Shown here: positions 4,772-58,922 of the stretch, piece by piece
How the letters are laid out: the number at the start of each line of letters is the position of its first letter
How positions within the stretch are numbered: the first letter of the stretch is position 1
Source of the DNA: Lacticaseibacillus casei DSM 20011 = JCM 1134 = ATCC 393
Lineage (GTDB): Bacteria; Bacillota; Bacilli; Lactobacillales; Lactobacillaceae
DNA: 64,000 nt
Assembly: GCF_000829055.1 (NCBI RefSeq)
Contig: NZ_AP012544.1
Location: forward strand, 1,488,001 to 1,552,000
Reading direction: 5' to 3'
Position numbers and translations under genes: made by a program
Notes under the pieces: generated by a model
The model's input: the letters and a program-made list of their open reading frames with translations, nothing else
Told to the model about the DNA's origin: nothing
The model's database searches: none

Positions 4772-4887
4772 GAGCGTGAGCTGGCGCGGTTAGAAACCGG
4801 AGTGTAAGTGGCCTTGGTCGCAATGGCCAAAATCGGGCCATTGCGACCAAGGTCCTTACACGTAGATTTCTGCGACTGTGAGCGCGT
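4772..4887. repeat. Dispersed palindromic element, copy A
   Basis: About 116 bp between dnaJ and lepA. The core stem, running from GTGTAAG into TTGGTCGCAATGGCC, is matched by GGCCATTGCGACCAA running out to CTTACAC, nearly perfectly over 26 bp. Flanking arms begin GAGCGTGAGC and end GAGCGCGTTTCC. Same element as the copies at 14404, 29086, 41715, 47112 and 58815. Confidence 0.9.
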
Positions 4888-4933
4888 TTCCGCAACCAGA
4901 CAAGTTAGATTGAAGTTGCCAGACAAGGATATC

Positions 4934-4980
4934 AAAAAATCGGTTCCAGCGACAAGTTGCCTCCAGAACCGATTTTTTTT
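4934..4980 (-). terminator. Terminator of dnaJ
   Basis: AAAATCGGTTC / GAACCGATTTT stem with a 19-base loop, flanked by T runs on both strands; it ends the hrcA-grpE-dnaK-dnaJ transcript. Confidence 0.85.
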
Positions 4981-5001
4981 GTGTCAATTAATTTTAGCGC
5001 T

Positions 5002-6174
5002 TTATTTCCCGCCTTTAAACGCTTCTTTAACACGGTCAAACAACGTGCCATTATGCGGCGTGACATCTTCACCGCTGGCAGCAGCAAATTGCATCAATGC
5101 TGCTCTTTGTTTCTCATTCAGATGCTTTGGCGTTTGAATTTCGACGGTAACAATTTCATCGCCGGTTCCGTTGCCGCGCAGTCTTGGCGCACCCTTACCG
5201 CGTAGTCTGAACTTAGTCTGGCTTTGGGTACCTGCCGGGATCTTCAACTCAACCGGTCCATGAACCGTATCGACTTTGATTTCGTCGCCCAATGCAGCCT
5301 GCGCAAAGCTTAATGGGATGGTCAGATAGATTTCTGCGCCGTCCCGTTGATACTTTTTGCTTGGTGCAACTCGGAAAACAATGTACAGATCACCGTAAGG
5401 CCCGCCGTTGGTCCCCGCTTCACCAGCTTGTTGCAGCCGCATTTGCTGACCGTCTTCAACGCCGGCTGGAACCTTGACATCAATAGTGTGACGTTCTTGT
5501 TCATGACCGCTGCCATGGCAAGTCGGGCACTTTTCTTTGATTTCTTTACCGGTACCGCCGCAGACGTCGCAAACCTGGCGTGTCATCATCGTGCCAAAGG
5601 CCGTATTTCGTTGTACCTGGATGTAACCGGTACCATGGCACTTATGGCACGTTACCGGGCTGGTACCCGGTTTAGCTCCACTACCATGACAGGTATGACA
5701 AACAGCTTCGCGATCGTAGGAGATCTTGGTATCTTTACCAAAAATCGCCTCTTCAAAAGTCAAGTCCATCCGGTATTGTAAATCGGCGCCTTGACGCGGT
5801 GCCGACGGATTCGCTTGGGCACCACCGCCAGCTCCGCCAAAGAATTGGCTGAAGATATCGTCAAAGCCACCGCCAAAACCACCTTGGCCACCGAAATCGC
5901 CAAAGCCGCCTGCCTGACCTGCGCCTGCGCCGGCGTTGCCGAATCCCTGCGGACCATCAGCAGAACCATACTGATCATAGGCCGCACGTTTCTGGGGATC
6001 AGACAGGACCTGATAGGCTTCATTTATCTCTTTAAACTTTTGCTCTGCACCTGGTGCGTGATTGAGATCGGGATGATATTTTTTCGATAGCTTGCGAAAA
6101 GCCTTACGAATGGTGTCATCATCGGCATCCCGGCTCACACCGAGCGTCTCATAATAATCTTTCTGATCCGCCAT
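5002..6174 (-). CDS. dnaJ: Chaperone protein DnaJ, 390 aa
   Basis: Type I J-protein that loads substrates onto DnaK and stimulates its ATPase. The J domain is at 1-70, with HPD at 34-36. A Gly/Phe-rich region follows (about 75-130). The zinc-finger domain has four CxxCxGxG repeats ([32 protein letters not shown]), followed by the C-terminal substrate-binding barrels. The start ATG has GAGGAGG upstream. It is the last gene of the HrcA-controlled operon, with an internal terminator hairpin separating it from dnaK, which may lower its expression. Confidence 0.98.
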
Positions 6175-6233
6175 GAGTTCCTCCTCGATTCAGATCGTGA
6201 CTGAAAATGCCAATTCAGCATAGCATAATTCAA

Positions 6234-6270
6234 ACAAAAAGCCAAAACCGCGCCGCGGCTTCGGCTTTTT
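6234..6270 (-). terminator. Terminator-like hairpin between dnaK and dnaJ
   Basis: Minus strand AAAAAGCCGAAGCCGCG pairs with CGCGGTTTTGGCTTTTT, followed by TTTTTG. It lies inside the operon, so it probably attenuates rather than stops transcription into dnaJ. Confidence 0.8.
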
Positions 6271-6287
6271 GCTGATGATCTGCGACC

Positions 6288-8156
6288 TTACTTCTTATCG
6301 TCGTCAGAAACATCCTTGTAATCGCCATTGATGGTATCATCGTCAGACTTCTTGCCGGTACCGCCTTGCGTTGCACCGGTTGCAGCACCACTCGCAGCGC
6401 CGCCTTGTGCCTGCTGATTCTTCTGGGCGTTTTCATAAAGCTTAACGGTCATGTCCTGAACCAGCTTGTTCAAGTCGTCCCGCTTTTGCTTCATGTCATC
6501 AAGGTTGTTTTCTTGTTGCGCTTTCTTCAAAGCTTCCTGAGCATCCTTGACTTTCTTGATATCTTCTTCAGGAACCTTGCCGTCAACGTCCTTGAGTGTC
6601 TTGTCGGTCTGGAAGAGTAACTGATCGACATCGTTCTTCAAGTCGACTTCTTCCTTACGCTTTTTGTCGGCTTCAGCGTTTTCTTCGGCTTCCTTCTTCA
6701 TGCGTTCGATTTCTTCATCGGACAAACCACTGGAACTCTTAATGGTGATGTTCTGTGACTTGCCGGTGCCGAGATCCTTGGCAGAAACTTGAACGATCCC
6801 GTTCTTATCGATATCAAACTTGACTTCGATTTGCGGAACCCCACGTGGTGCCGGCGGAATATCCGTCAATTCGAAGCGACCAAGCGTTTTGTCATCCGCT
6901 GCCATTGGCCGTTCACCTTGCAGAACGTGAATGTCAACGGCCGGCTGGTTATCAGCTGCAGTTGAGAAGACCTGACTCTTGGACGTCGGGATGGTTGTGT
7001 TACGATCGATCAACTTGGTGAAGACGCCACCCATGGTTTCAATACCCAAGGACAGCGGCGTAACATCCAACAGAACAACATCCTTAACATCACCGGAAAT
7101 GACACCACCTTGGATAGCGGCACCCAAAGCAACGGCTTCATCAGGGTTGATGCTGTGATCAGGGTCTTTGCCGGTCCATTCTTTAACGGCTTCCTGAACC
7201 GCCGGAATTCGTGTAGAACCACCGTTCAAGATAACCTTGTCGATGTCAGCGTTGGTTAGCTTAGCATCCTTCAACGCATTTTCAACCGGTTGCTTGGTCT
7301 TGGCAACCAAGTCAGCGGTCATTTCGTCAAACTGAGCACGCGTCAAAGTGCGTTCCAAGTGCAACGGTCCATTAGGGCCAGCAGAGATAAACGGTAGACT
7401 GATCTGGGTCTGGGTAACGCCAGACAGATCCTTCTTTGCCTTTTCAGCAGCATCCTTCAAGCGTTGCATCGCCATCTTGTCTTTGGACAGGTCAATGTTG
7501 TTGTCCTTTTTGAATTCGGAAACCAACCAGTCGATGATCTTGTTATCAAAGTCATCGCCGCCCAAATGGGTATCGCCATTGGTTGACAGAACTTCAAAGA
7601 CACCGTCACCTAATTGCAGAATGGAAACATCGAACGTCCCACCGCCAAGGTCATAAACCAGAATCTTTTCATCCTTGTCGCCTTTGTCCAGGCCATAAGC
7701 CAGTGCTGAGGCGGTTGGTTCGTTGATGATCCGCTGTACATTCAAACCGGCAATTTTACCGGCATCCTTGGTAGCTTGACGTTGGCTGTCATTGAAGTAA
7801 GCCGGCACGGTAATAACGGCATCCTTAACCGGTTCGCCCAGATAGTCTTCAGAAAATTTCTTGATGTATTGCAGAATCATCGCAGAAATTTCCTGAGGGG
7901 TGTATTCCTTGTCGCCAACCTTAACCTTGTAGTTGGCTTCGCCCATGTGGCGTTTAATCGAAACAATCGTATCCGGGTTGGTAATTGCCTGACGCTTGGC
8001 AACTTCACCGACTTGAATTTCACCATCTTTAAAAGCAACAACAGACGGTGTGGTCCGATTGCCTTCAGGATTTGTAATGATCTTTGGCTGATTGCCTTCC
8101 AAAACCGCAACAGCTGAGTTGGTGGTTCCTAAGTCAATACCAATAACTTTACTCAT
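6288..8156 (-). CDS. dnaK: Molecular chaperone DnaK (Hsp70), 622 aa
   Basis: ATP-dependent protein-folding chaperone. The N-terminal ATPase domain shows IDLGTTNS at residues 7-14 and the [12 protein letters not shown] phosphate-binding segment. The substrate-binding domain and helical lid follow. The C-terminal tail is Gly/Ala/Gln-rich and then acidic (about 585-622). Length is normal for Gram-positive DnaK. It is third in the hrcA operon, 30 bases after grpE, and is expected to be heat-induced through HrcA/CIRCE. Confidence 0.99.
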
Positions 8157-8186
8157 ATTGTTATACCTTCTTTATTTTCAGTTTAA

Positions 8187-8780
8187 TTATTTAGCAACAA
8201 CGACCATAGCAGGGCGTAAAACGCGATCTTTGAGATAATACCCTTTTTGCAGGACCTGAGCGACAGTATCAGCTGCGTGTTTGTCATCAGCCGCGACTGT
8301 TTGTACAGCCTGTTGGGTATTCGGGTCGAATTTTTCACCGGTGCCATCAATAGCAGTGATGCCGTTCTCCTTCAAAGCACGCTCCAAATGGTCATAAACC
8401 ATCTGGACACCTTTTTTCAGTGAAGCAGCACTATCATCTTTGGCCTCGGTTGCAAGCGCACGTTCAAGATTATCGACAACTGGCAAAATCGCCTTTGCTA
8501 ACTTCTGGCCGTCGTACTTCAGCATCTTCTGTTGCTCTTTTTCGAACCGATGATTCATGTTTTGAATCTCCGCGGCTGCTCGCAGATATTTATCTTCAAA
8601 TTCATCACGTTCTTTCTTCAACTGTTCACCTTCGTGTTGGCTGGTTTTCAGTTGATCATTGAGATCAGCGATGCTTTCTTTCAGAATTTCTTCTTTAAGC
8701 GAAGATCCTGACGTTTCAGCAGGTTGCTTTGCCTGTTTGGCGGTATCTGCCGCGGTTTGCTTTGCTTTTTTCTCTGCCAT
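8187..8780 (-). CDS. grpE: Nucleotide exchange factor GrpE, 197 aa
   Basis: GrpE releases ADP from DnaK. The first 30 residues are low-complexity (Lys/Ala/Gln/Thr). Residues about 35-95 form the long dimerising helix, with heptad-like EGEQLKKERDEFEDKYLRAAAE. The C-terminal beta domain ends GYYLKDRVLRPAMVVVAK, the family's most conserved stretch. It sits between hrcA and dnaK as usual. Confidence 0.98.
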   Translation of the reverse strand: MAEKKAKQTAADTAKQAKQPAETSGSSLKEEILKESIADLNDQLKTSQHEGEQLKKERDEFEDKYLRAAAEIQNMNHRFEKEQQKMLKYDGQKLAKAILPVVDNLERALATEAKDDSAASLKKGVQMVYDHLERALKENGITAIDGTGEKFDPNTQQAVQTVAADDKHAADTVAQVLQKGYYLKDRVLRPAMVVVAK

Positions 8781-8847
8781 GGTATCCTCCCTTTAAACCA
8801 TATTTGCCAGTCGTCATGAAGCAACGCTAGCAAATATTTTTTAATAT

Positions 8848-9894
8848 TCATTGATCAAAGTTGGCATAATAATCTGTCAACCGTTTTGCCAGCTCTTCAC
8901 GGAAAACATCCAGCAGTCCGATCATTTTCGAATAAGGCATCTGCGTCGGTCCTAGCAAGGCGATCATTCCAGTGCCGTGGTCACCAACATCGTAGCTAGC
9001 GGTGATTAAACTGAGGTTGGCCAAATCAATTGGCTTAAGCTCTGGCCCCAAACGTACTTGAACCGGCGTTTGACGAATCGGTCCGCCAAGCAGTTCCGTC
9101 AGATCACCGTGATCAGCGTCAATCAATGACACAATCTTTTTCAGTTCATGGATATCGGAATCGCCTAGGTAATCCATCAGATTCAACCGCCCGCCAACGT
9201 AAAAGCGCTCGGACGCAGCTGATTTCAAGACGTTGCCGAAGATATCCAAGAAGCCTTCAGGACTGGTCAGATACTGCATTAACATCGAAGGCACATCGGT
9301 TTTCAGCCGCTGTGCAACTTGAATTAATGGTAGTCCAACGAGTTGATCGTTGACAATTCGAATCGCCTTTTCGAGCTCATCGGATGAGATGTTTTGCGAT
9401 ACGGTAAAGACCTGGTTTTCAATGTTACCGTTATTCGTGACCAAAATCGCCATGACTTGGTGATTGCCTAATGGAACAAGGCGAAAACCTGTCAGCTTGA
9501 TATTGGTTACTTCAGGTCCCAGGCTAATGGCCGTGTAACTCGTCAGATTGGACAAAATTTGCGCACTTTGCGCGACAATCTCATCCATCTTATTGTATCG
9601 CTGGCTAAATGCCTGCTTGATAGTCGCCAGTTCTTGATGCGAAACACGCACCGGTTCAACAAGGTGATCGAGATAATAACGATAGCCTTGCGTTGACGGT
9701 ACGCGCCCGGAACTGCTGTGGGTCTTGGTGATCAAACCGGCATCTTCTAGCGACGCCATATCATTACGGATTGTGGCGGAACTGACATGAATGGGCAGCT
9801 CGCGCATCAATCGCTTTGAACCAACCGGCTCTCCGCTTTCAGTAAACAGGCGGATGATTTCTTTTAAGACGAGCACTTGCCGTTTCGTCAACAT
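8848..9894 (-). CDS. hrcA: Heat-inducible transcription repressor HrcA, 348 aa
   Basis: HrcA binds the CIRCE operator and represses the dnaK operon in the absence of heat stress. The N-terminal winged helix is visible ([16 protein letters not shown], then [13 protein letters not shown] at about 38-50). A GAF-like domain follows with the family motif ([20 protein letters not shown]) near the C-terminus. It is the first gene of its operon, with the CIRCE element at 9909-9935 immediately upstream, so it is autoregulated. Start ATG has AGGTGAG upstream. Confidence 0.98.
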
Positions 9895-9908
9895 TTTCTC
9901 ACCTCACC

Positions 9909-9935
9909 TTAGCACTCGTTTCGCACGAGTGCTAA
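9909..9935 (-). promoter_or_regulatory. CIRCE operator of the hrcA-grpE-dnaK-dnaJ operon
   Basis: A perfect match to the known inverted repeat TTAGCACTC-N9-GAGTGCTAA. It overlaps the transcription start region of the promoter at 9946-9974, so HrcA binding would block initiation and also mark the 5' end of the mRNA. Confidence 0.98.
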
Positions 9936-9945
9936 TACACTGAAT

Positions 9946-9974
9946 AATATACCAAGCACCGTTAGCAAAGTCAA
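9946..9974 (-). promoter_or_regulatory. Heat-shock operon promoter
   Basis: Minus strand TTGACT (9969-9974), 17-base spacer, TATATT (9946-9951). A strong vegetative promoter just upstream of CIRCE. Confidence 0.92.
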
Positions 9975-10038
9975 GGCGAGCTTGCTAAAATCTTCAGTGT
10001 TTTCGGTGTTTCTAGCCAGTGGCGGCCATTTTTTCAAG

Positions 10039-10066
10039 AAAAAAGAGCCGTTTAAATAAGCGGCTC
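10039..10066 (-). terminator. Terminator overlapping the 3' end of hemW
   Basis: GAGCCG (10045-10050) pairs with CGGCTC (10061-10066); on the minus strand a T6 run follows. The hairpin includes the hemW stop codon region. Confidence 0.82.
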
Positions 10067-11197: not shown

Positions 11198-11198
11198 T

Positions 11199-12143: not shown

Positions 12144-12148
12144 CAAAA

Positions 12149-13057: not shown

Positions 13058-13111
13058 GAATTCGGCTCCTTTCAGTTTTCGGAATTAAAAAACGTTAATT
13101 GTTGTATCTCA

Positions 13112-13861: not shown

Positions 13862-13889
13862 CGTGATTCTTCCCTTCTCAATGCTTATT

Positions 13890-13918
13890 ATTATACCGTT
13901 CAAGCCAGGAAAGCTAAA
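13890..13918 (-). promoter_or_regulatory. Promoter of the terC-family gene
   Basis: Minus strand TATAAT (13890-13895) with a poor TTTAGC 17 bases upstream (13913-13918). A start of transcription near 13883 leaves a leader of about 22 bases, too short for a manganese riboswitch. Confidence 0.6.
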
Positions 13919-14030: not shown

Positions 14031-14384
14031 CTATTCTAAATTCTTGCGCCGCACTTCGTTAATTAACTGATCAATACGGGCACCATACTGAACGGATTTG
14101 TCTTGAGCAAATTCGATTTCCGGCACCTTGAACAGCCGAATCCGCTGCCCGACTTCACGCCGAATCAGTCCACTGGCTTTATCCAAACCGGTTTGGGCTG
14201 CTTCGACTTTATCAGGTGCATCATCGAGAATACTGTAGAAAATGGTGGCATGTTGCAGATCACCGGTCAGTTTGACTCCGGTAATCGTCACGCCTTTGAC
14301 CCGCGGATCGTTAACATCCTTTAACAAGATATCATCAACTTCACGTTGGATCTGAGTCTCAACTCGACCGATACGATGCTTCAT
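14031..14384 (-). CDS. rbfA: 30S ribosome-binding factor RbfA, 117 aa
   Basis: RbfA assists late 30S maturation and 16S rRNA processing. MKHRIGRVETQIQREVDDIL starts the protein, followed by the KH-like fold with DPRVKGVTITGVKLTGDL and a VPEIEF-type strand near residue 92. The longer in-frame start at 14480 would translate the palindromic repeat and was rejected; ATG 14384 has AGGAGG 10 bases upstream. Last gene of the nusA-infB operon, separated from infB by repeat copy B. Confidence 0.97.
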   Translation of the reverse strand: MKHRIGRVETQIQREVDDILLKDVNDPRVKGVTITGVKLTGDLQHATIFYSILDDAPDKVEAAQTGLDKASGLIRREVGQRIRLFKVPEIEFAQDKSVQYGARIDQLINEVRRKNLE

Positions 14385-14403
14385 CTGCGAATTACCTCCT
14401 GTT

Positions 14404-14518
14404 GAGCGTGAGCCGGCGCGCTTAGAAGCCGAAGTGTAAGTGGCCTTGGGCGTGATGGCGCTCTTTGCCATTGCGACCAAGGTCCTTACACGCAGGCTTC
14501 TGCGCCGGCGAACGCGTT
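14404..14518. repeat. Dispersed palindromic element, copy B
   Basis: About 115 bp inside the infB-rbfA gap, with no terminator, so it should be transcribed as part of the operon mRNA. Arms GAGCGTGAGCCGGCGCG and CGCCGGCGAACGCGTT pair; the middle arm GAAGCC pairs with GGCTTC; the core stem is GTGTAAG to CTTACAC. One end abuts the rbfA ribosome site. Confidence 0.9.
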
Positions 14519-14587
14519 ATGGTGGAGCGTTCGTCAACTTTTCACAGCCAGCAAACGCCTTTCCCTTAAATGACTTCCGTACACTGT

Positions 14588-29074: not shown

Positions 29075-29085
29075 GAAAAAAGACA

Positions 29086-29204
29086 AGAGCGCGAGCCAGC
29101 GCGGGTAGAAGCTGGAGTGTAAGTGGGCTTGACCGCGATGGCCGGGCTTTGGCCATCGCGGTCAAGGTCCTTACACGCAAGCTTCTGCGCTGGGGAGCGC
29201 GTTT
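29086..29204. repeat. Dispersed palindromic element, copy C
   Basis: About 119 bp. The core stem is CTTGACCGCGATGGCC / GGCCATCGCGGTCAAG, differing from copy A at three paired positions that stay complementary. Middle arm GAAGCT pairs with AGCTTC, outer arm CCAGCGC with GCGCTGG. Two partial tandem copies follow. Confidence 0.9.
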
Positions 29205-29261
29205 CCGTGCAGCATCGGTTAACAGTGCTTCAGTCAACACCGGCAGTTGAAAGTGAAAAAC

Positions 29262-29320
29262 CTTGTGCCATTGCGACCAAGGTCCTTACACGCAGATTTC
29301 TGGGCCAGTGAGCGCGTTTC
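29262..29320. repeat. Partial palindromic element, right half (copy C2)
   Basis: From CCTTGTGCCATTGCGACCAAG to GAGCGCGTTTCC only the right arm is present, then a shared tail (TTTCCATGCAGTATCGGCAAA). It is a tandem partial repeat of copy C. Confidence 0.8.
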
Positions 29321-29365
29321 CATGCAGTATCGGCAAATCTTCCTCGCATGTCAGACGCAAAAGCT

Positions 29366-29422
29366 TTGGCCATTTGAGCTAGAGGTCCTTACACGCAGAC
29401 TTCTGCGCCAGTGAGCGCGTTT
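29366..29422. repeat. Partial palindromic element, right half (copy C3)
   Basis: A second right-half copy, more diverged at the left (GGCCATTTGAGCTAGAGG), then CCTTACACGCAGACTTCTGCG, GAGCGCGTTTCC and the same tail as C2. With C and C2 it fills most of the 513-base gap between uppS and frr. Confidence 0.8.
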
Positions 29423-29469
29423 CCATGCAGCATCGGCAAATTCTCCTCACGTTGCACCACCAAAAAAAC

Positions 29470-34683: not shown

Positions 34684-34759
34684 GTTGGATGGGCTTGTGT
34701 TGAACCGTTTGATGTTATGTGCTTTTGGGTGTAGTACCCGGTGAACGTTCAGCCCCCTC

Positions 34760-34794
34760 AACGCGTTCGCCGATACAGGAGTTGGCTCACGCTC
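34760..34794. repeat. Deletion remnant of the palindromic element (copy D)
   Basis: AACGCGTTCGCCG and GGCTCACGCTC, the outer arms of the element, sit 11 bases apart; the core stem and middle arms are gone. The left part matches copy F base for base up to GGAGT. Confidence 0.75.
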
Positions 34795-34801
34795 ACTTCT
34801 T

Positions 34802-34823
34802 CATAACGCGCTCCCCGGCGCAG
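34802..34823. repeat. Left-arm fragment of the palindromic element (copy D2)
   Basis: ATAACGCGCTCCCCGGCGCA is identical to the left end of copy G (58815). It lies immediately before the ribosome site of the permease gene. Confidence 0.75.
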
Positions 34824-34845
34824 AATAGAAAGGACAAGTATCCTT

Positions 34846-36240
34846 ATGAATCTTTGGAAAAGAATGACCCGTAAGCCAGACTTGGCGGCCGCACTTAAAG
34901 CTGATGATTTACTGACACGAAGCTTAACGACGCGAGATTTGATTGCATTAGGCATTGGTGCCGTTATCGGTACTGGGATTTTTATTTTGCCTGGTACCGT
35001 TGCCGCTACAACGAGTGGCCCGGCAATCACGATAGCGTTCATTTTGGCGGCGGTTGTGTGTTCATTGGCTGCCATGTGTTATGCGGAATTTGCCTCGGCA
35101 CTGCCGGTGGCGGGTTCGGCTTATGCGTATGGCAATATTGTTTTCGGTCAGGTTTTTGGTTGGATCATTGGTTGGGCTTTGATTCTTGAATACATGTTGG
35201 CGGTTGCCGCGGTTTCGACTAGTTTTTCTGCCTACTTTGCCAGTTTGCTGACCGGTTTTCATATCCATCTGCCCGCAGCGATTGCCGGACCGTTCTCACC
35301 TAGCCACGGTACTTATGTCAATCTGATTGCCGTTCTTGTCGTTTTGTTAATCGGCATTATGCTTTCGCGTGGCATGCAGTCTTCGATGGCGATCAATCGA
35401 CTCATGGTTTTAGTTAAATTGCTTATCATTCTTATTTTTGTGATCGTCGGTTTCTTTTACGTTCAGCCGGCGAATTGGCATCCTTACCTGCCATTTGGTG
35501 CCAAAGGCGTTCTCGCCGGGGCCGCCATGGTTTTCTTTGCCTACCTTGGCTTTGATGCGGTGTCGGCCTCAGCTCCTGAAGTAAAGCAGCCTCAACGCAC
35601 CTTGCCTCGGGGAATTATCGGTACCTTGATCATCGCCACGATCTTATATGTTTTAGTCGCCATTGTCTTGACAGGGATGGTGCCATTTACCAAACTGGAC
35701 GTAGCTGATCCGGTTGCGTTTGCGCTCGGTGCGGTTCGTTTACGCGGTCTTGGCGGTTTCATTTCGGTGGGTGCACTGGCAGGTATGTTCACCATGATGG
35801 TCACGATGATTTACAGCTCATCCCGATTGATTTATGCTATTGGCCGTGATGGCTTGCTTCCCCGTTGGTTCGGTCATATTAGCGGACATCTACCGGAAAA
35901 TGCCCTCTGGACAGTGGTTGCGATTATCGCGATCATGGGCGGGCTGGTGCCGCTAAACCAGCTGGTCAACCTTGTTAACATCGGCACGCTGATTGCATTC
36001 GCGTTTGTGTCCATCGGCATCATCCCGTTACGGCGACATAAAGCCATCACTAACGACGGCTTTCACGTCCCTGGTTACCCAGTGACGCCAATCGTGTCGT
36101 TTCTCTTTTGCCTGTTGCTCATGACCCAATTAAGTGTTGAAACCTGGCTTATGAGTCTCGCGTGGTTTGCGTTTGGCTTGGTCATTTATTTCAGCTATGG
36201 CATCAGACACGGGCACGTTTCCGAAGCAAAAATCAGGTAA
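34846..36240 (+). CDS. Amino-acid permease, APC superfamily (cationic amino-acid transporter type), 464 aa
   Basis: About 12 membrane segments. The first has the APC helix-1 motif GIGAVIGTGIFILPG at about 44-58, and the EVKQPQRTLPRGI motif in the loop after helix 6 is present. The N-terminus is basic (RMTRKPDLAAALKADD) as in cationic amino-acid transporter-like members (YfnA/YhdG type). The substrate is not visible in the sequence. AAAGGAC is upstream of the ATG. The DUF1003 gene follows 38 bases later. Confidence 0.9.
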   Translation: MNLWKRMTRKPDLAAALKADDLLTRSLTTRDLIALGIGAVIGTGIFILPGTVAATTSGPAITIAFILAAVVCSLAAMCYAEFASALPVAGSAYAYGNIVFGQVFGWIIGWALILEYMLAVAAVSTSFSAYFASLLTGFHIHLPAAIAGPFSPSHGTYVNLIAVLVVLLIGIMLSRGMQSSMAINRLMVLVKLLIILIFVIVGFFYVQPANWHPYLPFGAKGVLAGAAMVFFAYLGFDAVSASAPEVKQPQRTLPRGIIGTLIIATILYVLVAIVLTGMVPFTKLDVADPVAFALGAVRLRGLGGFISVGALAGMFTMMVTMIYSSSRLIYAIGRDGLLPRWFGHISGHLPENALWTVVAIIAIMGGLVPLNQLVNLVNIGTLIAFAFVSIGIIPLRRHKAITNDGFHVPGYPVTPIVSFLFCLLLMTQLSVETWLMSLAWFAFGLVIYFSYGIRHGHVSEAKIR

Positions 36241-41625: not shown

Positions 41626-41714
41626 GAGCCTTCACCTCGAGTCTGTCGTGGCGCGGTGATCGAGTGTTTTTTCTCTGGTGTGGCGAAGTTGGGCTAGAAA
41701 TTTCGATGAGTCTC

Positions 41715-41834
41715 ATAACGCGTTCACCGGCGCAGAAGTCTGCGTGTAAGGACCTTGGTCGCAATGGCCAAAGCCCGGCCATTACGCCCAAGGCCACTTA
41801 CACTCCGACTTCTAAACGCGCCGGTTCACGCTCA
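41715..41834. repeat. Dispersed palindromic element, copy E
   Basis: About 120 bp, opposite orientation to A-C. Read on the minus strand it begins GAGCGTGAACCGGCGCG right after the rplS terminator. Middle arm GAAGTC pairs with GACTTC; outer ACCGGCGC pairs with GCGCCGGT. Flanks an AACGCGTTATGAG end. Confidence 0.9.
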
Positions 41835-41837
41835 AAA

Positions 41838-47084: not shown

Positions 47085-47111
47085 ATCATCAACGCGCTGG
47101 ATTGACGCACC

Positions 47112-47229
47112 TTAACGCGTTCGCCGGAGCAGGAGTCTGCGTGTAAGGACCTCGGTCGCAATGGCAAAGTTCGCCATCACGCCCAAGGCCACTTACACTC
47201 CGACTCCTAAGCGCGCCGGCTCACGCTCA
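47112..47229. repeat. Dispersed palindromic element, copy F
   Basis: About 118 bp between the converging 46770 gene and ftsY. Read on the minus strand: GAGCGTGAGCCGGCGCG start, middle arm GGAGTC pairs with GACTCC, core stem GTGTAAG to CTTACAC, end AACGCGTTAAGG. It lies two bases from the ftsY terminator. Confidence 0.9.
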
Positions 47230-47230
47230 T

Positions 47231-47275
47231 ATAAAAAAGCGTTGCACTTGAACGAACAGGTGCAGCGCTTTTTTT
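47231..47275. terminator. Bidirectional terminator of ftsY and the 46770 gene
   Basis: AAAAAAGCGTTGCACTTG pairs with CAGGTGCAGCGCTTTTTT (two mismatches) and has T runs on both strands. Confidence 0.88.
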
Positions 47276-51847: not shown

Positions 51848-51866
51848 GATGACCCCATTCTAGTTC

Positions 51867-52562
51867 TTACTTTTTCAAGCGGGCTAAAGCCGCCTTGGCT
51901 GCAGCTTGCTCAGCCGCTTTTTTATTCTTACCGAACCCGGTCCCTAATACTCGGCCTTCAACTTCAACATCAACGTGAAATTGCCGTTCATGGGCAGGAC
52001 CTTTTTCATCCAGGAGGTGATACACAATCGCCACATCACCATTTTGCTGCAGGGTTTCCTGTAATGCAGTCTTATGATCCTGGTTAGCCGAAAACTCACC
52101 GGCATCAATCTTAGGAAAAATGATCTGTTCGGCAAATTTGATATTGGCTTTACGGCCTTGATCCAAGTACAAGGCACCGTTAAATGCTTCAAACAAGTCT
52201 TCCAGCAACGTCAATCGCTTGCGGGCACCGGCTTTTTCTTCACCTTTTCCCAGCTTAATATAGCGATCAAAATGCGCCTCTTTTGAAAACGCCGAAAAGG
52301 CTGCAGTTTGAACCGCGGCAGCACGGATACGGGTCAGATCACCTTCCGGCTTATCCGGAAACTTACGATATAGATAGTCAGAAACGGTCAGTTCAAGCAC
52401 CGCGTCACCAAGAAATTCAAGTCGCTCGTTATCTTTTAACCCTAATTCTTTGTGTTCATTAACATACGAGGAATGCGTGAAGGCTTCATCCAATAGACTG
52501 AGATCGTGAAATTCAATCCCATAACGCTGACGCAATTCACTCACAAACTCTGAGGCAACCAT
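51867..52562 (-). CDS. rnc: Ribonuclease III, 231 aa
   Basis: Double-strand RNA endonuclease of rRNA maturation. [13 protein letters not shown] at 45-57 is the catalytic motif; the C-terminal dsRNA-binding domain covers about 160-229 and ends [17 protein letters not shown] promoter just upstream overlaps the oppA terminator. Confidence 0.98.
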
Positions 52563-52590
52563 GAAGAGCCCTCCTTTTTATCACCTTCTA

Positions 52591-52596
52591 ATTATA
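52591..52596 (-). promoter_or_regulatory. Candidate promoter of rnc-smc-ftsY
   Basis: Minus strand TATAAT, 29 bases before the rnc start; -35 weak and overlapping the T run of the neighbouring hairpin. Confidence 0.5.
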
Positions 52597-52608
52597 CAAG
52601 AGCGCACC

Positions 52609-52640
52609 AAAAAAGACACCTGCGATTGCAGATGCCTTTT
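52609..52640 (-). terminator. Terminator of oppA
   Basis: Minus strand AAAAGGCATCTGC pairs with GCAGGTGTCTTTT, followed by TT. Confidence 0.88.
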
Positions 52641-52653
52641 AGAGGTACTTTGA

Positions 52654-54444
52654 CTAGTTCTTCGCTGTGCTGGTGCTGGTAACAGCAATCTTAGCCCAGT
52701 TCAGGTTGTTAGCCGAAGCATAGTCAACGCTAGCATTCTTCACGCGCTTGTTAACCGGGAAGATTTGCTGACGATACAGTGTTGGGATAACAAAGGCTTC
52801 ATCTTGGGCGTATTCTTGCCATGCCCGGAAGGCCTTGTTCCGATAACTCTGATTCATTGCCTTTGAGCCATCAATGTCATTTAACAATTGCGTGTTCTTG
52901 TCCGAAACGAAACGCGTGTAGTTAAATGGTGCCTTTTGTGAGTAGAGATCCATTGGTGATGGGTCAGATGACAATTGCCATGCAGCTTGATAAACATCGA
53001 CGCTCTTATCATCCTTCTGAACCTTGTCATAGAAGGAATTGAATTCCATTGGACGACCGGTTGTTAACTTGACACGTAAGCCGATCTTCTTCCATTGCTG
53101 AACATAATCTTGAGCCAACGGTGTAGCCGTTGAACCACCGGCCATGGTAGCAAAGTTAATAGTCAACTTCTTACCATTCGGATCGGTCCGATAACCATCT
53201 TTGCCTTTCTTGTAGCCAGCCTTGTCAAGTAAGCTATTAGCTTTCTTGATATTAAGATCATAACCCTTGAGGTCAGCATGAGCTTTACCAAAGATAGGAG
53301 GAATCAACGTTGTTGCACGAGAACGGGTACCATTGTAGAACTTAGAAGCAACCTCATCATTGTTGAGCGCATAACCCATGGCCTGACGTAGGCTCTTGTT
53401 GGCCATCTTTGCCTTAGGATTATAAACATTTTCGCTCTTACTATCGTCCCATTTACCTAACTTAAAGCCGATGTAAGTATAAATCAGACCTTGACGACCT
53501 AAGTTTTGATAACCCTTAACACTCTTCCAATCGTTCCATGTATCAGTTGGCATTTCATAAACCAGATCGTACTTGTGATTTTTAAGCGCAGATGCACTGG
53601 AAGCAGAAGAAACATTCTCAAAGGTGATCTTGTCCAATTTAGGCTTGCCATTCCAATAATACTTGTTAGGCGTATATTGAACGCTTTGGCCTGCAACAAT
53701 CTTGCTCATCTTGTATGGGCCAAAGAAAAGCGGATGCTTACGAATCTTGTCGCTTGATTCCAGCTTATCGAAAGCCACGTCATGCAAGTAGTGATAAGGT
53801 GCGGCACTTTCTAGGAAGTAACCATTGCCGGATGTGTTGAACGAAGGTTTCATTTCCTTGAAATGAATAACCAGCGTGTCGCCATTGTCACCTTTAGGCA
53901 TGGTTAATCCAGAAATCGAATCGGCTTTACCTTCATGGTATTCGGTTAAGCCTTCAATATTCTGGAGAGATTCAGTATAACGTTGACTCTTGGTTGCTTT
54001 GTTCGCAATGATCTCGTATGCATAAACCAAATCACGTGCAACAACCGGTTGGCCATCCGACCACTTGACATTTGGCTTAATCGTTACAGTGACTGTTTTG
54101 GCATTATTGTCTTGCTTCAATGTGGCAGCACCTTTGTTGTTGAACTTAAAGGTGCTGTTGTAAGCAAAAAGACTTTCAGCCGCAGGATACATATAATCAT
54201 TATCATATGCATCCGTATAAAGCTCCTCGTTGAAAACCCCCTTAAATGGTGAGTCGTCAACGACACCGACATTAAGAGTACCACCCTTAATTGCCTTTTT
54301 GGTGTTGTTATAAGAGATCGGTAATTTCACAGCCTTATTAGATGTACTTGAGCTGGAGTTCGAACTCTTACTGCCACAGGCTACCAAGGTGATGGATAAA
54401 GCGGTAGCGAGCGTGATCATTCCGAGCACAGAACGCTTTTTCAT
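52654..54444 (-). CDS. oppA: Oligopeptide ABC transporter substrate-binding lipoprotein OppA, 596 aa
   Basis: Extracellular peptide-binding lipoprotein. Signal peptide with lipobox LVAC, so lipidated Cys23, and a Ser/Asn-rich linker. SBP_bac_5 domain (solute-binding family 5) with the typical DGQPVVARDLVYAYE segment and the tail of the family. Length is normal. It has its own promoter at 54509-54538 in addition to the opp operon promoter, as expected for the most abundant component. Confidence 0.96.
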   Translation of the reverse strand: MKKRSVLGMITLATALSITLVACGSKSSNSSSSTSNKAVKLPISYNNTKKAIKGGTLNVGVVDDSPFKGVFNEELYTDAYDNDYMYPAAESLFAYNSTFKFNNKGAATLKQDNNAKTVTVTIKPNVKWSDGQPVVARDLVYAYEIIANKATKSQRYTESLQNIEGLTEYHEGKADSISGLTMPKGDNGDTLVIHFKEMKPSFNTSGNGYFLESAAPYHYLHDVAFDKLESSDKIRKHPLFFGPYKMSKIVAGQSVQYTPNKYYWNGKPKLDKITFENVSSASSASALKNHKYDLVYEMPTDTWNDWKSVKGYQNLGRQGLIYTYIGFKLGKWDDSKSENVYNPKAKMANKSLRQAMGYALNNDEVASKFYNGTRSRATTLIPPIFGKAHADLKGYDLNIKKANSLLDKAGYKKGKDGYRTDPNGKKLTINFATMAGGSTATPLAQDYVQQWKKIGLRVKLTTGRPMEFNSFYDKVQKDDKSVDVYQAAWQLSSDPSPMDLYSQKAPFNYTRFVSDKNTQLLNDIDGSKAMNQSYRNKAFRAWQEYAQDEAFVIPTLYRQQIFPVNKRVKNASVDYASANNLNWAKIAVTSTSTAKN

Positions 54445-54508
54445 ACTTTTTCCCCCTTCCGCGCCGTCATCGCAATATGTAAGCGAGGCAACGCTTCATG
54501 TGAGTTAA

Positions 54509-54538
54509 ATGATAGCATAATTAGAGCGGAATGGCCAA
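54509..54538 (-). promoter_or_regulatory. Separate promoter of oppA
   Basis: Minus strand TTGGCC (54533-54538), 18-base spacer ending TGC, TATCAT (54509-54514), extended -10. Confidence 0.75.
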
Positions 54539-54569
54539 TGTTTCGCCACAAATTTTTCTTTTTTTCTTC

Positions 54570-54608
54570 AAAAATAAAGAGCCACCCAGTTTTGTCTGAG
54601 TGTCTCTT
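54570..54608 (-). terminator. Terminator between oppC and oppA
   Basis: Minus strand AAGAGACACTCAG pairs with CTGGGTGGCTCTT, followed by TATTTTT. Confidence 0.8.
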
Positions 54609-54636
54609 CATGAAATTTCAGAAAAAGTAAATCAAC

Positions 54637-55548
54637 TTAACCACGCCGCTGCCGTGAATCCGCCGCGCGCCGCAAAGCCTGGCCCACAAAGTTAATTGAT
54701 AGTGACAGTGTCAGCAAGACCAGCACTGCAGGGAACCAAACCCACCAACGATCAAAGATCAAATCAGGATTTGAAGCGTAACCGATTAAGGTCCCCAAAC
54801 TAGGTGTATCCATTGGTAGCCCAAAGCCCAAGAAAGAAAGTGCCGTCTCAATCCCAATAGAACTGGCAATCGTCAAGGTTAAGTCGGTTATAATCAATGA
54901 ACTTATATTTGGCAAAACACCGGTAAACATGATTTTGAAGTTCGATGTTCCTGATGTTTTTGAGGCCATGACGTATTCACTACGCGCTTCCGATAGCACT
55001 AACGAGCGCATTAGTCGAGTCGTGGTCATCCAGTAAAAAGCAGACATAATTAAAATGATGCTAATAACGTTATACTGCGGAACGATGGTGACTAACACAA
55101 TGATAACTAGCAACGACGGAATAATCATCCAAAAGTCAACTAGTCGCATGATCACAGAATCGATCCAACCACCGAAATATCCAGAAATTGTTCCAAGCAC
55201 GACGCCAACAAACTCGATGATTAAAGCAACGGAAATCCCGATAGTAATTGAGTTGCGGGCAGCAAAGAACAAATATTTGAACATATCCCGGCCACCTTCA
55301 TCGGTTCCGAGAATATACCCATTGACACCAGGTGCCGTATAACGATCCATGATACTAACCTGTGTTGCACCGCCAACGTTAAACAGCATTGAGCCAATAA
55401 ACGCAGCTAGAATAATGGCTACCGCTAAGAATAGTGAGACCACAGCAACCCTGTCTTTGCGGAATTCGTTCAGAATCACCTTGAAGTTAGAAGGTGATTG
55501 TCCAATTTTTGTGGTGTTAGCCGCCACTTCATTTGCATTGTTTTGCAT
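54637..55548 (-). CDS. oppC: Oligopeptide ABC transporter permease OppC, 303 aa
   Basis: One N-terminal and about five further membrane segments; EAA-loop region EYVMASKTSGTSNFKIMFTGVLPNI is diagnostic. The N-terminal cytoplasmic part (about 1-40) is longer than in OppB. Downstream of oppB after a 16-base gap. Confidence 0.96.
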   Translation of the reverse strand: MQNNANEVAANTTKIGQSPSNFKVILNEFRKDRVAVVSLFLAVAIILAAFIGSMLFNVGGATQVSIMDRYTAPGVNGYILGTDEGGRDMFKYLFFAARNSITIGISVALIIEFVGVVLGTISGYFGGWIDSVIMRLVDFWMIIPSLLVIIVLVTIVPQYNVISIILIMSAFYWMTTTRLMRSLVLSEARSEYVMASKTSGTSNFKIMFTGVLPNISSLIITDLTLTIASSIGIETALSFLGFGLPMDTPSLGTLIGYASNPDLIFDRWWVWFPAVLVLLTLSLSINFVGQALRRAADSRQRRG

Positions 55549-55564
55549 AAACTTTCCCCACCTT

Positions 55565-56527
55565 CTACTCGATCCGGATCCGCGGATCCACGATACTCAT
55601 GATGATATCTGACAGTAAGTTACCAAGCAACGTCAGGAAGCCGAACAAAAGCACCAGCGAGATAACCACCGGATAATCACGGCTGGTCATCGACGAAACA
55701 AAGAGTTGACCCATTCCAGGATAACTGAAGACTGTTTCCAAGATGACGGAGCCGCCCAGCAGGCTGGTAATTTGATTACCCATGAACGCTGCAATCGGCA
55801 ATAAGGAATTACGCAAAATATGTTTATCAAAAATAACGCGGGCCGGCACACCTTTAGAACGAGCGGTCCGAACAAAGTCCTGGTGAGTATTATCGATGAC
55901 CCCGGTACGCAGATACTGAATCGTACTTGGCGTCGTGATAATCCCCGCGACTAACGCCGGTAGAATCATGTGATAGATCCGATCCCAGACATAGCCCAGT
56001 GTTCCCGGATTATACGTTGACGACACACTCCCGCCGGTTGGGAACCATTGTAAGAAGAAGCCGAAGAAAATGAGCCCTAACAGATAGAAAACAAATGGTG
56101 GTACGGCCATCAAAATGAAGGATGCAACCGAAATTGCAGAATCTCGTTTACTGCCTTCATAACGGCCGGCAATCACACCGGCTGGAATGGCGATAACATA
56201 GAGAATCACCGTTGACATCAATGCCAGCCAGAATGTGTTCACAGCCCGTTCACCGATCAGACCAGTTACCGACCGTTTATAAACGAAGCTCTGACCCAAA
56301 TCACCATGGAACATGTTGCCAACCCATTTGACATATTGAATATACCACGGGTCATTCAAGCCATATTGTTGACGTAAGGCCGCCATCTGCGCTGCGCTTT
56401 GCCCTTGCTGAAAATTACCGGATAACGGATCCCCTGGCATCATTTTCGACAGGACGAAAACCAGCACACTCAGTAAAATCAATTGCGGGATCATGATTAA
56501 GATCCGGCGTAGAATTGTTTTCCACAT
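55565..56527 (-). CDS. oppB: Oligopeptide ABC transporter permease OppB, 320 aa
   Basis: Six membrane segments; EAA loop HQDFVRTARSKGVPARVIFDKHILRNSLLP is visible. Start ATG overlaps the oppF stop (TAATG type, same base 56527). Confidence 0.96.
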   Translation of the reverse strand: MWKTILRRILIMIPQLILLSVLVFVLSKMMPGDPLSGNFQQGQSAAQMAALRQQYGLNDPWYIQYVKWVGNMFHGDLGQSFVYKRSVTGLIGERAVNTFWLALMSTVILYVIAIPAGVIAGRYEGSKRDSAISVASFILMAVPPFVFYLLGLIFFGFFLQWFPTGGSVSSTYNPGTLGYVWDRIYHMILPALVAGIITTPSTIQYLRTGVIDNTHQDFVRTARSKGVPARVIFDKHILRNSLLPIAAFMGNQITSLLGGSVILETVFSYPGMGQLFVSSMTSRDYPVVISLVLLFGFLTLLGNLLSDIIMSIVDPRIRIE

Positions 56528-57480
56528 TAATCATGCACTCCCTTCATCGTTGAATCTGGCAGCGCAACGTAATGTGTATCGGAAATCTTCTGGAGATCCA
56601 AAACGCGGCCTTCCTTTGAATAATATTTAGATTCCTCTTCTTTAAAAATGCGTTCAACTTCACGCCGATGCTCTTTGTTCTTTTCCCGATCGTCAGGGTT
56701 AACATCAGGAATCGCGGATAAAAGCCGTTGCGTGTAAATATGTTGCGGATGGTTATAAATATCTTCGCGCGTTCCGATTTCAACGAAGCGGCCACGATGC
56801 ATGATCGCCATCTTTTTACACATGTGCTTCACAACGCCCAAGTCATGTGAAATAAACAAATAAGAAATGTTGTACTCTTCCTGAATGCGTTTCATAAAGT
56901 TCAGCACTTGCGCTTGAACGGACAAATCCAGTGCCGATACGGGTTCGTCGGCGATAATCAACTTAGGATTCGTCGCCATGGCCCGGGCAACCCCGATCCG
57001 CTGACGCTGGCCGCCGGAAAATTCATGCGGATACTTGTACAAAGCATCACTCGGCATCCCAACGATATCCAGTAATTCCTGAACACGATGACGCTCCTCG
57101 TCTTTGGTCAGGTTCTGAAAATTACGAATCGGCTCAGCAATGATATCTTCAATGCGCTTACGGGGATTCAGGCTGGATAGCGAATCCTGGAAAATCATCT
57201 GCACGTCCTTGTTGTACTGCATGTGCTTGCGAACGCTGCGCTTGGTGATGTCCTGACCTTTGTACATGATCGAACCGGACGTCACCGGCTCCAGTCCAAC
57301 AATCGCTTTGCCGGTTGTCGATTTGCCTGAACCGGACTCGCCAATCAGGCCATATGTTTCGCCTTGCTCAATGTCAAAATCGATCCCATCGACTGCCAGC
57401 ACGTGATCTGTCACCCGGTTAAAGAAGCCGGAACGAATGGGATAATGTATTTTTAGATTTCTAACTTCAATCATTGCCAT
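56527..57480 (-). CDS. oppF: Oligopeptide ABC transporter ATPase OppF, 317 aa
   Basis: Walker A GESGSGKST at 47-55, signature FSGGQRQRIGVARAM, Walker B LIIADEPVSALD, then the oligopeptide C-terminal extension (PQHIYTQRLLSAIPDVNP). Two bases after oppD. Confidence 0.97.
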   Translation of the reverse strand: MAMIEVRNLKIHYPIRSGFFNRVTDHVLAVDGIDFDIEQGETYGLIGESGSGKSTTGKAIVGLEPVTSGSIMYKGQDITKRSVRKHMQYNKDVQMIFQDSLSSLNPRKRIEDIIAEPIRNFQNLTKDEERHRVQELLDIVGMPSDALYKYPHEFSGGQRQRIGVARAMATNPKLIIADEPVSALDLSVQAQVLNFMKRIQEEYNISYLFISHDLGVVKHMCKKMAIMHRGRFVEIGTREDIYNHPQHIYTQRLLSAIPDVNPDDREKNKEHRREVERIFKEEESKYYSKEGRVLDLQKISDTHYVALPDSTMKGVHD

Positions 57481-57482
57481 AA

Positions 57483-58505
57483 TTACTCACCTTTTTCAGC
57501 CGCTCGGTCGTCATCCGGGAAATAGAAGTCTTTGTAGCACGTGCACTGAACAAAATGATCAGGTGCGACTTCATGCATGGTCGGATGCTCTTCGTGAGCA
57601 GATGCCGGAATCCATGGAATTCGGGGAGCAAATCGGCAGCCTTCCATCTGCATATTCTTCAATGACGGCACCACGCCTTGAATAACGTGTAACTCGTCAT
57701 CATCGGAGTCGGCTTGCGGCATCGACCGCAACAGACTGCGCGTATACGGGTGGGTCGGATGTTTGAAGACATCCATCACTGAGCCACTTTCAACAATCTG
57801 TCCCGCATACATCACCGCCACGCGATCAGCGGTTTCGGCCACAACGCCGAGGTCATGGGTAATTAAAATAATGCCGGAATGCATTTCCCGCTGAATGTCT
57901 TCCAACAAATCCAAAATTTGTGCCTGAATCGTGACATCCAAAGCGGTAGTTGGTTCGTCGGCAATGATAATCGGTGGTTTGCAGGCAATCGCAATCGCAA
58001 TGACAATCCGTTGCCGCATCCCGCCAGACAGTTCATGCGGATAAGAACGTGCCGTCCGTTCAGGATTAGGAATTCCAACTTGATTCAGCAGTTCCAGCAC
58101 CCTTTTATCACGTTCTTCTTTGTTCATCTTGGTATGGTAAACCAGCGTCTCTTCAATTTGCTCGCCAATCCGCATCAACGGATTCAACGCAGCTAACGGA
58201 TCCTGGAAAATCATGCCAATATCCTTACCACGAATCCGATCAAAGAGGGTTTCATTTAACCCGACCAGATTCAGGTTGTTATACAAGATATCACCGGTCA
58301 CTTTTGTATTACGCGGATCATGAAGCCCGATAATACTGGTTGCCAAAGTACTCTTGCCGGAGCCTGATTCACCTACAATCGCCAGAATCTCATCTTTTCG
58401 TAACGTGATGCTGACATCATCGACAGCATCATAAAAAGCATCTCCAAGTCTGAATCCGGTGTGCAGATGTTGCACATCTAGCAGCAAATCTTCAGGTTTA
58501 TCCAA
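57483..58505 (-). CDS. oppD: Oligopeptide ABC transporter ATPase OppD, 340 aa
   Basis: Walker A GESGSGKST at 45-53, signature LSGGMRQRIVIAIAI, Walker B IIIADEPTTALD, C-terminal oligopeptide-type extension with a Cys/Arg motif (MEGCRFAPRIP). The start is TTG at 58505, seven bases after GGAGG; an upstream ATG would put the ribosome site inside the gene. First gene of oppDFBCA. Confidence 0.96.
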   Translation of the reverse strand: MDKPEDLLLDVQHLHTGFRLGDAFYDAVDDVSITLRKDEILAIVGESGSGKSTLATSIIGLHDPRNTKVTGDILYNNLNLVGLNETLFDRIRGKDIGMIFQDPLAALNPLMRIGEQIEETLVYHTKMNKEERDKRVLELLNQVGIPNPERTARSYPHELSGGMRQRIVIAIAIACKPPIIIADEPTTALDVTIQAQILDLLEDIQREMHSGIILITHDLGVVAETADRVAVMYAGQIVESGSVMDVFKHPTHPYTRSLLRSMPQADSDDDELHVIQGVVPSLKNMQMEGCRFAPRIPWIPASAHEEHPTMHEVAPDHFVQCTCYKDFYFPDDDRAAEKGE

Positions 58506-58518
58506 ACGAACTCCTCCT

Positions 58519-58535
58519 TTGCGTCCTTGACGCAA
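58519..58535 (-). promoter_or_regulatory. Hairpin abutting the oppD ribosome site
   Basis: TTGCGTC-N3-GACGCAA is a perfect 7-bp stem two bases upstream of AGGAGG on the minus strand. It may affect oppD translation; function inferred. Confidence 0.45.
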
Positions 58536-58574
58536 GATTAAAACAAGATGAGATTTTCGAAATAATTGTCTCTA

Positions 58575-58603
58575 AGTATAAAGAAATTATAGTGGTTATG
58601 CAA
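58575..58603 (-). promoter_or_regulatory. Promoter of oppDFBCA
   Basis: Minus strand TTGCAT (58598-58603), 17-base spacer, TATACT (58575-58580). The region 58604-58814 upstream shows no convincing operator or gene; a weak AATTTTC-like match (near 58735) is not enough to call CodY. Confidence 0.85.
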
Positions 58604-58814
58604 GCCAAAAATGCGTCCCAACGCCATTGAAGCGCGAAATTTACGAATAAATCCATCAATGATTCGTGCACAAGGATGGCGAGCTTTAAAGAAAATCGAG
58701 CATCCTCAACATGATGCTGCAAGCAGATCATATCAGAAAATTCGGTTTGTTTGAAGAAAACGTCCTTTATAGTCTGCGTGCGGCTCGTAAAAACGAAAGT
58801 GAGTCGCGCTCACC

Positions 58815-58922
58815 ATAACGCGCTCCCCGGCGCAAGAGCCTGCATGTAAGGATCTTGGTCGCAATGCCATTACTCCAAAGACCACTTACACTCCGGCTCC
58901 TAACCGCGCCGGCTCGCGCTCA
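58815..58922. repeat. Dispersed palindromic element, copy G
   Basis: About 108 bp, shortened in the core loop. Read on the minus strand: GAGCGCGAGCCGGCGCGG, middle arm GGAGCC pairs with GGCTCT (one change), core arms with TGTAAG / CTTACA, end GAGCGCGTTATGG. It lies four bases from the acpP terminator and fills much of the 457-base gap before oppD. Confidence 0.88.

Follow-up and report, generated by a model that had tools for sequence, protein, structure and literature searches.

A dispersed intergenic hairpin of Lacticaseibacillus casei with a conserved fold and species-specific stem sequences: a candidate REP-like mobile element of Bacilli

We describe a dispersed hairpin element of Lacticaseibacillus casei, recognised in a 64,000-nt stretch (hereafter, the window; G000:C1:1488001-1552000) of its 2.92-Mb chromosome (2,924,929 bp). 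G000 denotes the window's own genome and other G-numbers denote other genomes. The hairpins, ~117-125 nt in length and present in ~150 copies on the G000 chromosome, are dispersed between genes, are oriented with respect to their surroundings, fold on one particular strand and retain this fold while the paired letters change. We favour, with modest confidence, the explanation that the element is a non-autonomous mobile hairpin similar to repetitive extragenic palindromes (REPs), moved by an enzyme that acts in trans and reads the folded strand. More tentatively, the family may be class-wide and independent of the REP-associated tyrosine transposases (RAYTs), namely, an ancient hairpin that would be recognised by its shape rather than its sequence. 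A still undiscovered recombinase or polymerase of Bacilli would use this shape, formed by folded single-stranded DNA (ssDNA), as its substrate, and each species would have evolved its own letters within a constant architecture.

A large family of intergenic hairpins

The covariance model R1, built from 34 sequences including all six near-complete copies of the window (two of them as L001 and L004), located at least 150 places in G000, the weakest at 26 bits. Further copies exist beyond these places, for example, at L153:1849-1972 and L148:2327-2451, and 149 G000 copies are longer than 100 nt. With one of the window copies (copy A) alone as the query, blastn retrieved at least 100 matching places, many of them due to the element being a palindrome. 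The counts of pair types, genomic context and flanks given below rest on 140 copies, that is, the 150 rows of alignment A3 minus 10 duplicates; this set is short on array units, which cmsearch drops when they overlap by 1-2 nt.

All six window copies reported in an earlier note on this DNA were located (R1 107-149 bits; because these copies trained R1, their scores serve location only). The statement of that note that the copies lie only between genes extends to the genome, given that none of the 140 copies overlaps a called gene by more than 40 bp, with four left ends touching or overlapping a gene end by 1-21 bp (simple gene caller of our own).

When the hairpin is read in the orientation GAGCG...CGTT and from the foot inwards, the foot pairs are followed by an internal loop that holds a G.A mismatch. 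Two helices come next, separated by a GNTT bulge on one side only, and then another loop, again purine-rich, the GTGTAAG/CTTACAC helix, a core variable in sequence and length, and a short closing loop. The left foot is (T/A)GAGCG in most of the 140 copies, and the outermost foot pair is either T-A or A-T, its two sides changing together (Watson-Crick in 102 of 104 copies, compared to 58.7 expected). In some G000 copies, the entire core is swapped for a different sequence that is again palindromic. The left boundary of the element is sharp, and ~20 nt located 3' of the hairpin are conserved within species, as in the TTTCAATAAGCACGAGTAACG-like flanks of G015 (right flanks of L352-L410).

Conservation of the fold

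The differences between arms that the earlier note had cited are present in the sequence, and changes that preserve pairing exceed chance. In a sequence-only alignment of 34 G000 copies, 97.2% of the 1358 pair cells are standard pairs vs 93.9% after shuffling, and double changes were found in 17 pairs (7.1 shuffled) and 59 cells (20.3 shuffled); none of the 500 shuffles reached the observed counts. The signal extends beyond this genome. Among 37 copies from five genomes, aligned with MAFFT on sequence alone without use of the structure (alignment A6), 97.2% of 1184 pair cells are standard vs 72.7% shuffled, 27 of the 32 pairs change on both sides, covariation is 0.703 vs 0.235, and 301 cells are double changes vs 91.5 shuffled (0 of 500 shuffles), with slid structures pairing at 33-49%. 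In 60 rows from many genera (59 distinct, fitted to the model and hence biased towards it), 95.7% of 1874 cells pair vs 62.8% shuffled. A search of the genome and its relatives with a covariance model and a statistical test, the check proposed along with the earlier note, thus showed the family to be larger and the covariation significant, and the view that something keeps the fold is strongly supported both within the genome and across genera.

The mismatched positions of the hairpin are conserved as well. Across genera, the bulge is 4 nt long in 52 of 53 copies and starts with G in 52 of 53, with nothing opposite, and the first mismatch of loop 1 is G.A in 46 of 53 (35 loci, 60 rows minus 7 duplicates, several from one array, in an alignment fitted to covariance model R2). 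In the unfitted 37-copy alignment, the G.A mismatch is present in 35 of 37 copies and the bulge starts with G in all 37.

These features bear on the possibility that the element is a neutral palindrome kept symmetrical by DNA template switching during replication, whereby one arm is copied onto the other without selection. Cores that differ in sequence and length and are still near-perfect palindromes would be expected under this scenario, as would the finding that, in 89% of comparisons (140 copies, 30 random comparisons each), the right arm of the same copy is a better partner for a left arm than the right arm of another copy. However, neither the bulge, present on one side only, nor the G.A mismatch nor the fixed G.U pairs should survive such copying, yet all of them persist, the bulge and the G.A mismatch across genera and in the face of changing paired letters. 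Nor does such copying yield a strand asymmetry. The arm-onto-arm copying that the earlier note had allowed for as a keeper of the fold is accordingly disfavoured, and template switching appears to be the least credible of the explanations considered here. The family might serve as a natural test case for distinguishing selection on a fold from mere correction of a palindrome.

Orthologous copies of L. casei and L. zeae/L. chiayiensis are weak evidence either way, because several diverged copies look like whole-unit replacements within arrays. Among pairs that were Watson-Crick at the start, 77 changed pairs stay paired (50 by double change, 25 by change to G.U and 2 by double change to G.U) and 44 break; this comparison used 23 of 79 flank-anchored pairs, several of the 79 being cross-matches between arrays, from a database of 80 of 82 loci.

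The folded strand and the genomic sites

If neither strand mattered, G.U and A.C combinations would be roughly equal in number. Instead, G.U exceeds A.C by 509:84 in the 140 G000 copies and by 135:79 once four columns in which G.U is the founder state are set aside (binomial p 1.6e-4, the cells not being independent). When only columns with at most 15% of either were counted, the ratio was 48:13 in 59 copies of G015 and 19:4 in 34 copies of another genus (G185, G140 and G163). Therefore, it is the forward strand that folds, whether as DNA or as RNA.

The two ends of the element differ in their surroundings. Among the 138 G000 copies with a called gene on both sides, the left end lies 10-30 nt away from the start codon of an outward-pointing gene in 37 (simulated mean 7.5, maximum 19 in 5000), whereas no right end lies at this distance (simulated 7.6). 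A T-run of at least 5 nt is found within 14 nt of the left end in 42 of these copies and of the right end in 3; in a second count, the left:right ratios were 43:4 in G000, 14:1 in G019, 12:0 in G015 and 1:1 in the other genus. A Shine-Dalgarno sequence followed by a start codon and an open frame adjoins the left and right ends at 38:1 of 140 copies in G000 and 21:1 of 75 in G019, such copies being antisense to the gene. Thus, the left end adjoins pyrimidine-rich forward-strand DNA in the casei group, where the sites 5' of the element are T-runs and the complement of Shine-Dalgarno sequences, and T-runs in G015; in the third group, it adjoins neither. As a result, dozens of casei-group genes carry strong hairpins directly in front of their ribosome-binding sites. 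The earlier claim that five of the six window copies lie beside a terminator was not confirmed in this form: three of the six (41714, 47111 and 58814) abut a T-run at the left end, and the copy at 14404 adjoins a Shine-Dalgarno sequence.

A structured RNA is another candidate for the folded form. The forward strand would be transcribed, and the hairpin would function either as a small RNA or, within untranslated regions, as a site of protein binding or of RNase III action, its spread being secondary. Covariation, conserved internal loops and tolerance of G.U are all expected from selection on RNA, and many sites are common to several species. However, the casei-group copies located by Shine-Dalgarno sequences are antisense to the gene, so that it is the opposite strand that is present in the leader, an argument against a forward RNA acting in cis at these sites. 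Nor do 111 isolated G000 copies share a promoter-like conserved column at 15-70 nt 5' of the left end (maximum 0.11 bit; up to 0.6 bit in smaller sets of 16-32 copies), and the window has no match in Rfam at the gathering score. The earlier note had no name for the element. When 8 + 3 loci were searched at E up to 1, the element copies gave only chance-level matches below the gathering score, mostly to microRNA hairpins (mir-455). We judge a structured RNA to be unlikely overall, though far from negligible. A THF riboswitch (RF01831, 74.8 bits) is located near an element copy in L114 (2271-2365, G000:C1 ~2158131-2158225), where the neighbouring copy is matched by the mir-455 model below the gathering score.

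The asymmetry of the ends also bears on the suggestion of the earlier note that the origin could be similar to that of a miniature inverted-repeat transposable element (MITE), in this case moved by the cut-and-paste DDE transposase of a resident insertion sequence. The element is indeed short, palindromic, intergenic and non-coding. However, its left and right ends behave differently, and no clear target-site duplication (TSD) of 2-6 bp was detected at 36 offset pairs in 104 isolated G000 copies (of the 113 isolated among the 140, the rest being dropped because their end motifs were not found), the largest excesses being 4 observed vs 0.9 expected for k = 4 and 3 vs 0.5 for k = 5. A 3-4 bp ATG/TATG repeat hinted at by L146:4430 was rejected as evidence of a MITE, given the lack of a clear excess in the 104-copy set. 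A MITE thus seems very unlikely.

Distribution among Bacilli

The 82 stretches that contain the 21-mer GACCNAGGTCCTTACACGYAG in a collection of 84,980 species all come from L. zeae and L. chiayiensis, in a search that may omit records of G000 itself or of a very near genome. Matches to R1 (E up to 0.001) are present in 26 of 30 genomes of the genus Lacticaseibacillus, some with quite different stem letters. The 37-copy covariance model (E up to 1e-6) identified the element in 100 of 201 Lactobacillaceae genomes (22 of 40 genera), in 21 of 198 Lactobacillales genomes (6 of them Lactobacillaceae) and in 15 of 250 Bacilli genomes (13 outside Lactobacillales). These family, order and class counts are lower bounds, owing to stricter filters and to a maximum of 14-17 scored matches per genome, and some of the single-copy genomes among them carry only the regulator/ATPase gene cassette copy described below. 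The same architecture, along with tandem units, was observed in other genera, in other families and in three genomes of other orders. Judging from these comparisons, the species-specific repeats of Bacilli appear to be one family with the same fold and different letters.

This distribution is relevant to the proposal that the hairpin is a DNA site used by the host, for example, to bind a protein of the nucleoid, of repair or of recombination, and that recombination has spread it and selection retained it. An architecture common across the class, sites common to several species and the occurrence of arrays would all be in line with such a role. Yet the element is patchy, not only at the level of the family and class but also inside one genus, where matches range from 0 to at least 118 per genome, and a house-keeping site is not expected to vary in this manner. 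We consider this proposal improbable.

In one Lacticaseibacillus species (L241; G025:C22:2276-2399), the sole R1 matches (E up to 0.001) are the two strands of a single strong casei-type copy, which suggests recent transfer. Casei-type copies were also detected on 15 of 72,556 plasmid records, 9 from Pediococcus and 6 from Lacticaseibacillus, with 80% or more of the query covered in 14 of them; a search of 50,697 phage records yielded none. The plasmid hosts are Pediococcus acidilactici, P. inopinatus, L. paracasei and L. rhamnosus (e.g., L270 6001-6117), with one place per record and no annotated feature beneath the copies; contexts were read in 4 of the 15 records. Near-identical copies ride a gene cassette in several genera, consisting of a Penicillinase_R-family regulator and a P-type ATPase (Pfam), which we take to be CopY/CopA-like. 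The copy is located between the two genes, with its left end by the ATPase start (L290, L292, L293, L294, L295, L300, L302 and L303, ~1501-1623).

Arrays and turnover

Adjacent units of arrays are invariably on the same strand (24 of 24 in G000, and 8 of 8 and 10 of 10 elsewhere). For only 4 of the 24 G000 pairs is the neighbour also the closest match in the whole genome, and many arrays therefore did not arise by simple, recent tandem duplication. An origin of arrays by tandem duplication alone was rejected. Neighbours in G015 are less alike than random pairs (0.675 vs 0.717). In the arrays at window positions 29203-29461, L145 6255-6500 and L202, later units retain the right arm but no longer have a left arm that pairs with it, and variable sequence lies in between.

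Sister species have many sites in common, yet differ by whole units and by absences: the copy at L146:4430 is absent in L. chiayiensis and G019, that at L162:4190 in G019, and that at L150:2201 in L. zeae. The sites in this sample were chosen by the presence of copies.

A possible mechanism of dispersal

Integron attC sites and group IIC intron targets are precedents for recombination on a folded single strand and for insertion beside terminator hairpins. We infer an enzyme and an ssDNA step in the dispersal of the hairpin. The forward strand would fold when single-stranded, as in replication, and an enzyme acting in trans would recognise the shape, that is, the helix segments, the GNTT bulge and the G.A mismatch. 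The enzyme would then copy or move the folded strand and join it to DNA next to a resident copy or on the 3' side of a pyrimidine tract. Selection on this recognition would keep the pairing and the mismatches while the letters drift, so that each species would come to have its own stem sequence. The bulge and the mismatch would indicate an enzyme that reads structure and is distinct from the known REP transposase.

Several observations weigh against this mechanism. To begin with, the enzymes sought are scarce. The Y1 transposase (PF01797) has no match in G000, G019, G016, G015, G013 or G026 and is present in 2 of the 16 copy-rich genomes, an IS110-type transposase scores over the cut-off in only 3 of the 16, and a reverse transcriptase (RVT_1) occurs in only 5 of the 16 and not in G000. 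With regard to the strand, A.C mismatches are not rare outside the founder columns (79 in G000), and the excess of G.U over A.C suits RNA equally well as ssDNA. The Shine-Dalgarno geometry is absent in G015 (0:3 of 59) and in the other genus (0:0 of 34), the latter also lacking the T-run asymmetry (1:1), and there is no replication-strand bias (80 vs 70, assuming the origin at base 1 and the terminus at half). Furthermore, array neighbours are more alike than random pairs in G000 (0.807 vs 0.765, P 0.001; 149 copies, 24 pairs), an excess not seen in an earlier, smaller test (140 copies, 13 pairs, P 0.19), and in the other genus (0.756 vs 0.679); some tandem duplication thus apparently occurs. 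The many copies at sites common to sister species would also fit an old, retained function, and some young sites may have a short TSD. Finally, dispersal in the sense of movement is deduced from the comparison of genomes.

The RAYT/IS200, IS110 and reverse transcriptase partners were rejected, none being common to the 16 copy-rich genomes, in a search confined to these enzyme families. G000 itself contains four IS110-type matches (1481226, 2039903, 2924077 and 80482), three with identical scores and one partial.

Relationship to known repeats

The mobile hairpin proposed here is REP-like in its behaviour but is not filed as REP/RAYT, MITE or BOX, because Y1, IS110 and reverse transcriptase fail as a common partner. 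Thus, the REP-like origin considered in the earlier note holds for the lifestyle (dispersed, intergenic, oriented and clustered) but not in the strict sense, Y1 being absent in this genome and in 14 of the 16 copy-rich ones. The group IIC introns likewise differ in depending on a reverse transcriptase, an enzyme with the sparse distribution given above (5 of the 16 genomes, none in G000).

The hairpin resembles REPs and bacterial interspersed mosaic elements (BIMEs), with their RAYT (TnpA-REP), in forming dispersed intergenic palindromes, in clustering, in combining a species-specific sequence with a common architecture and in the folded single strand. REPs are roughly 20-40 nt long, and RAYTs with abundant REPs have been found only in gammaproteobacteria (PMC2817692). 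By contrast, our hairpin is ~120 nt long and lacks the GT(A/G)G head, and its clusters are head-to-tail on one strand, whereas REP clusters contain inverted REPs. BOX, RUP and SPRITE of Streptococcus pneumoniae are similarly intergenic and folded. There are 125 BOX and 110 RUP copies in one genome, BOX has a variable number of inner units, and both BOX and RUP possess terminal inverted repeats and TSDs (PMC3049150). Our element has no clear TSD and repeats as whole hairpins or right halves; the right-half units follow the hairpin rather than lying inside it, unlike in the boxA-boxB(n)-boxC modules, a distinction drawn from the description of BOX.

Repeated stem-loops of low-GC Firmicutes include the Bhal-1, Efa-1 and Lac-1 families, of which Efa-1 consists of two adjacent hairpins and Lac-1 is found in coding regions (PMC2267715). 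Single members of the present family may have been seen earlier as such anonymous stem-loop families, for example, Bhal-1 (PMC2267715), a comparison made by description. STAXI is another repeated structured motif that has been discussed as folded ssDNA or RNA; it is a pseudoknot, for which its authors favour RNA (PMC2864571), whereas our element is a hairpin without an Rfam match at the gathering score. A literature search that left out most subscription papers yielded no recognised description of the hairpin element, nor is it mentioned in the available part of the ATCC 393 genome paper (PMC3792948). Within the literature searched, the class-wide family, the conserved bulge and the absent RAYT partner appear to be new.

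Copies in the window

Besides the near-complete copies, the window contains right-half units, in which the left arm is unpaired, and decayed copies (Table 1), neither of which the earlier note had mentioned.

Table 1. Hairpin copies and derived units in the window. Spans matched by R1 include 4 nt of flank per side.
Feature	Position	Strand	Basis	Remarks
Copy A	4772..4887	+	R1 132.1 bits (span 4768-4891)	Class II ends: A at left foot, T after CGTT
Copy B	14404..14517	+	R1 137.8 bits (span 14400-14521)	Outward gene 14031-14384 starts 20 nt from the left end; its Shine-Dalgarno sequence adjoins the copy
GCTT, one-sided 4-nt bulge (GNTT) of copy B	14420..14423	+	Read from sequence	
Copy C	29087..29202	+	R1 131.8 bits (span 29083-29206)	First unit of array
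Right-half unit	29256..29358	+	Repeat family D1, sequence	Right arm and tail; left arm unpaired
Second right-half unit	29359..29461	+	Repeat family D1, sequence	
Two decayed copies	34756..34840	-	Repeats D8/D9, sequence	Right-end fragment and internally deleted copy
Copy E	41718..41833	-	R1 149.1 bits (span 41714-41837)	Highest score in the genome; left end abuts T-run
Copy F	47115..47228	-	R1 135.5 bits (span 47111-47232)	Left end abuts T-run
Sixth near-full copy	58818..58921	-	R1 107.1 bits (span 58814-58925)	Shortened core; left end abuts T-run

The decayed copies are located directly upstream of a gene starting at 34846 (open reading frame 34846-36240), and the site of copy F is common to L. 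zeae and L. chiayiensis.

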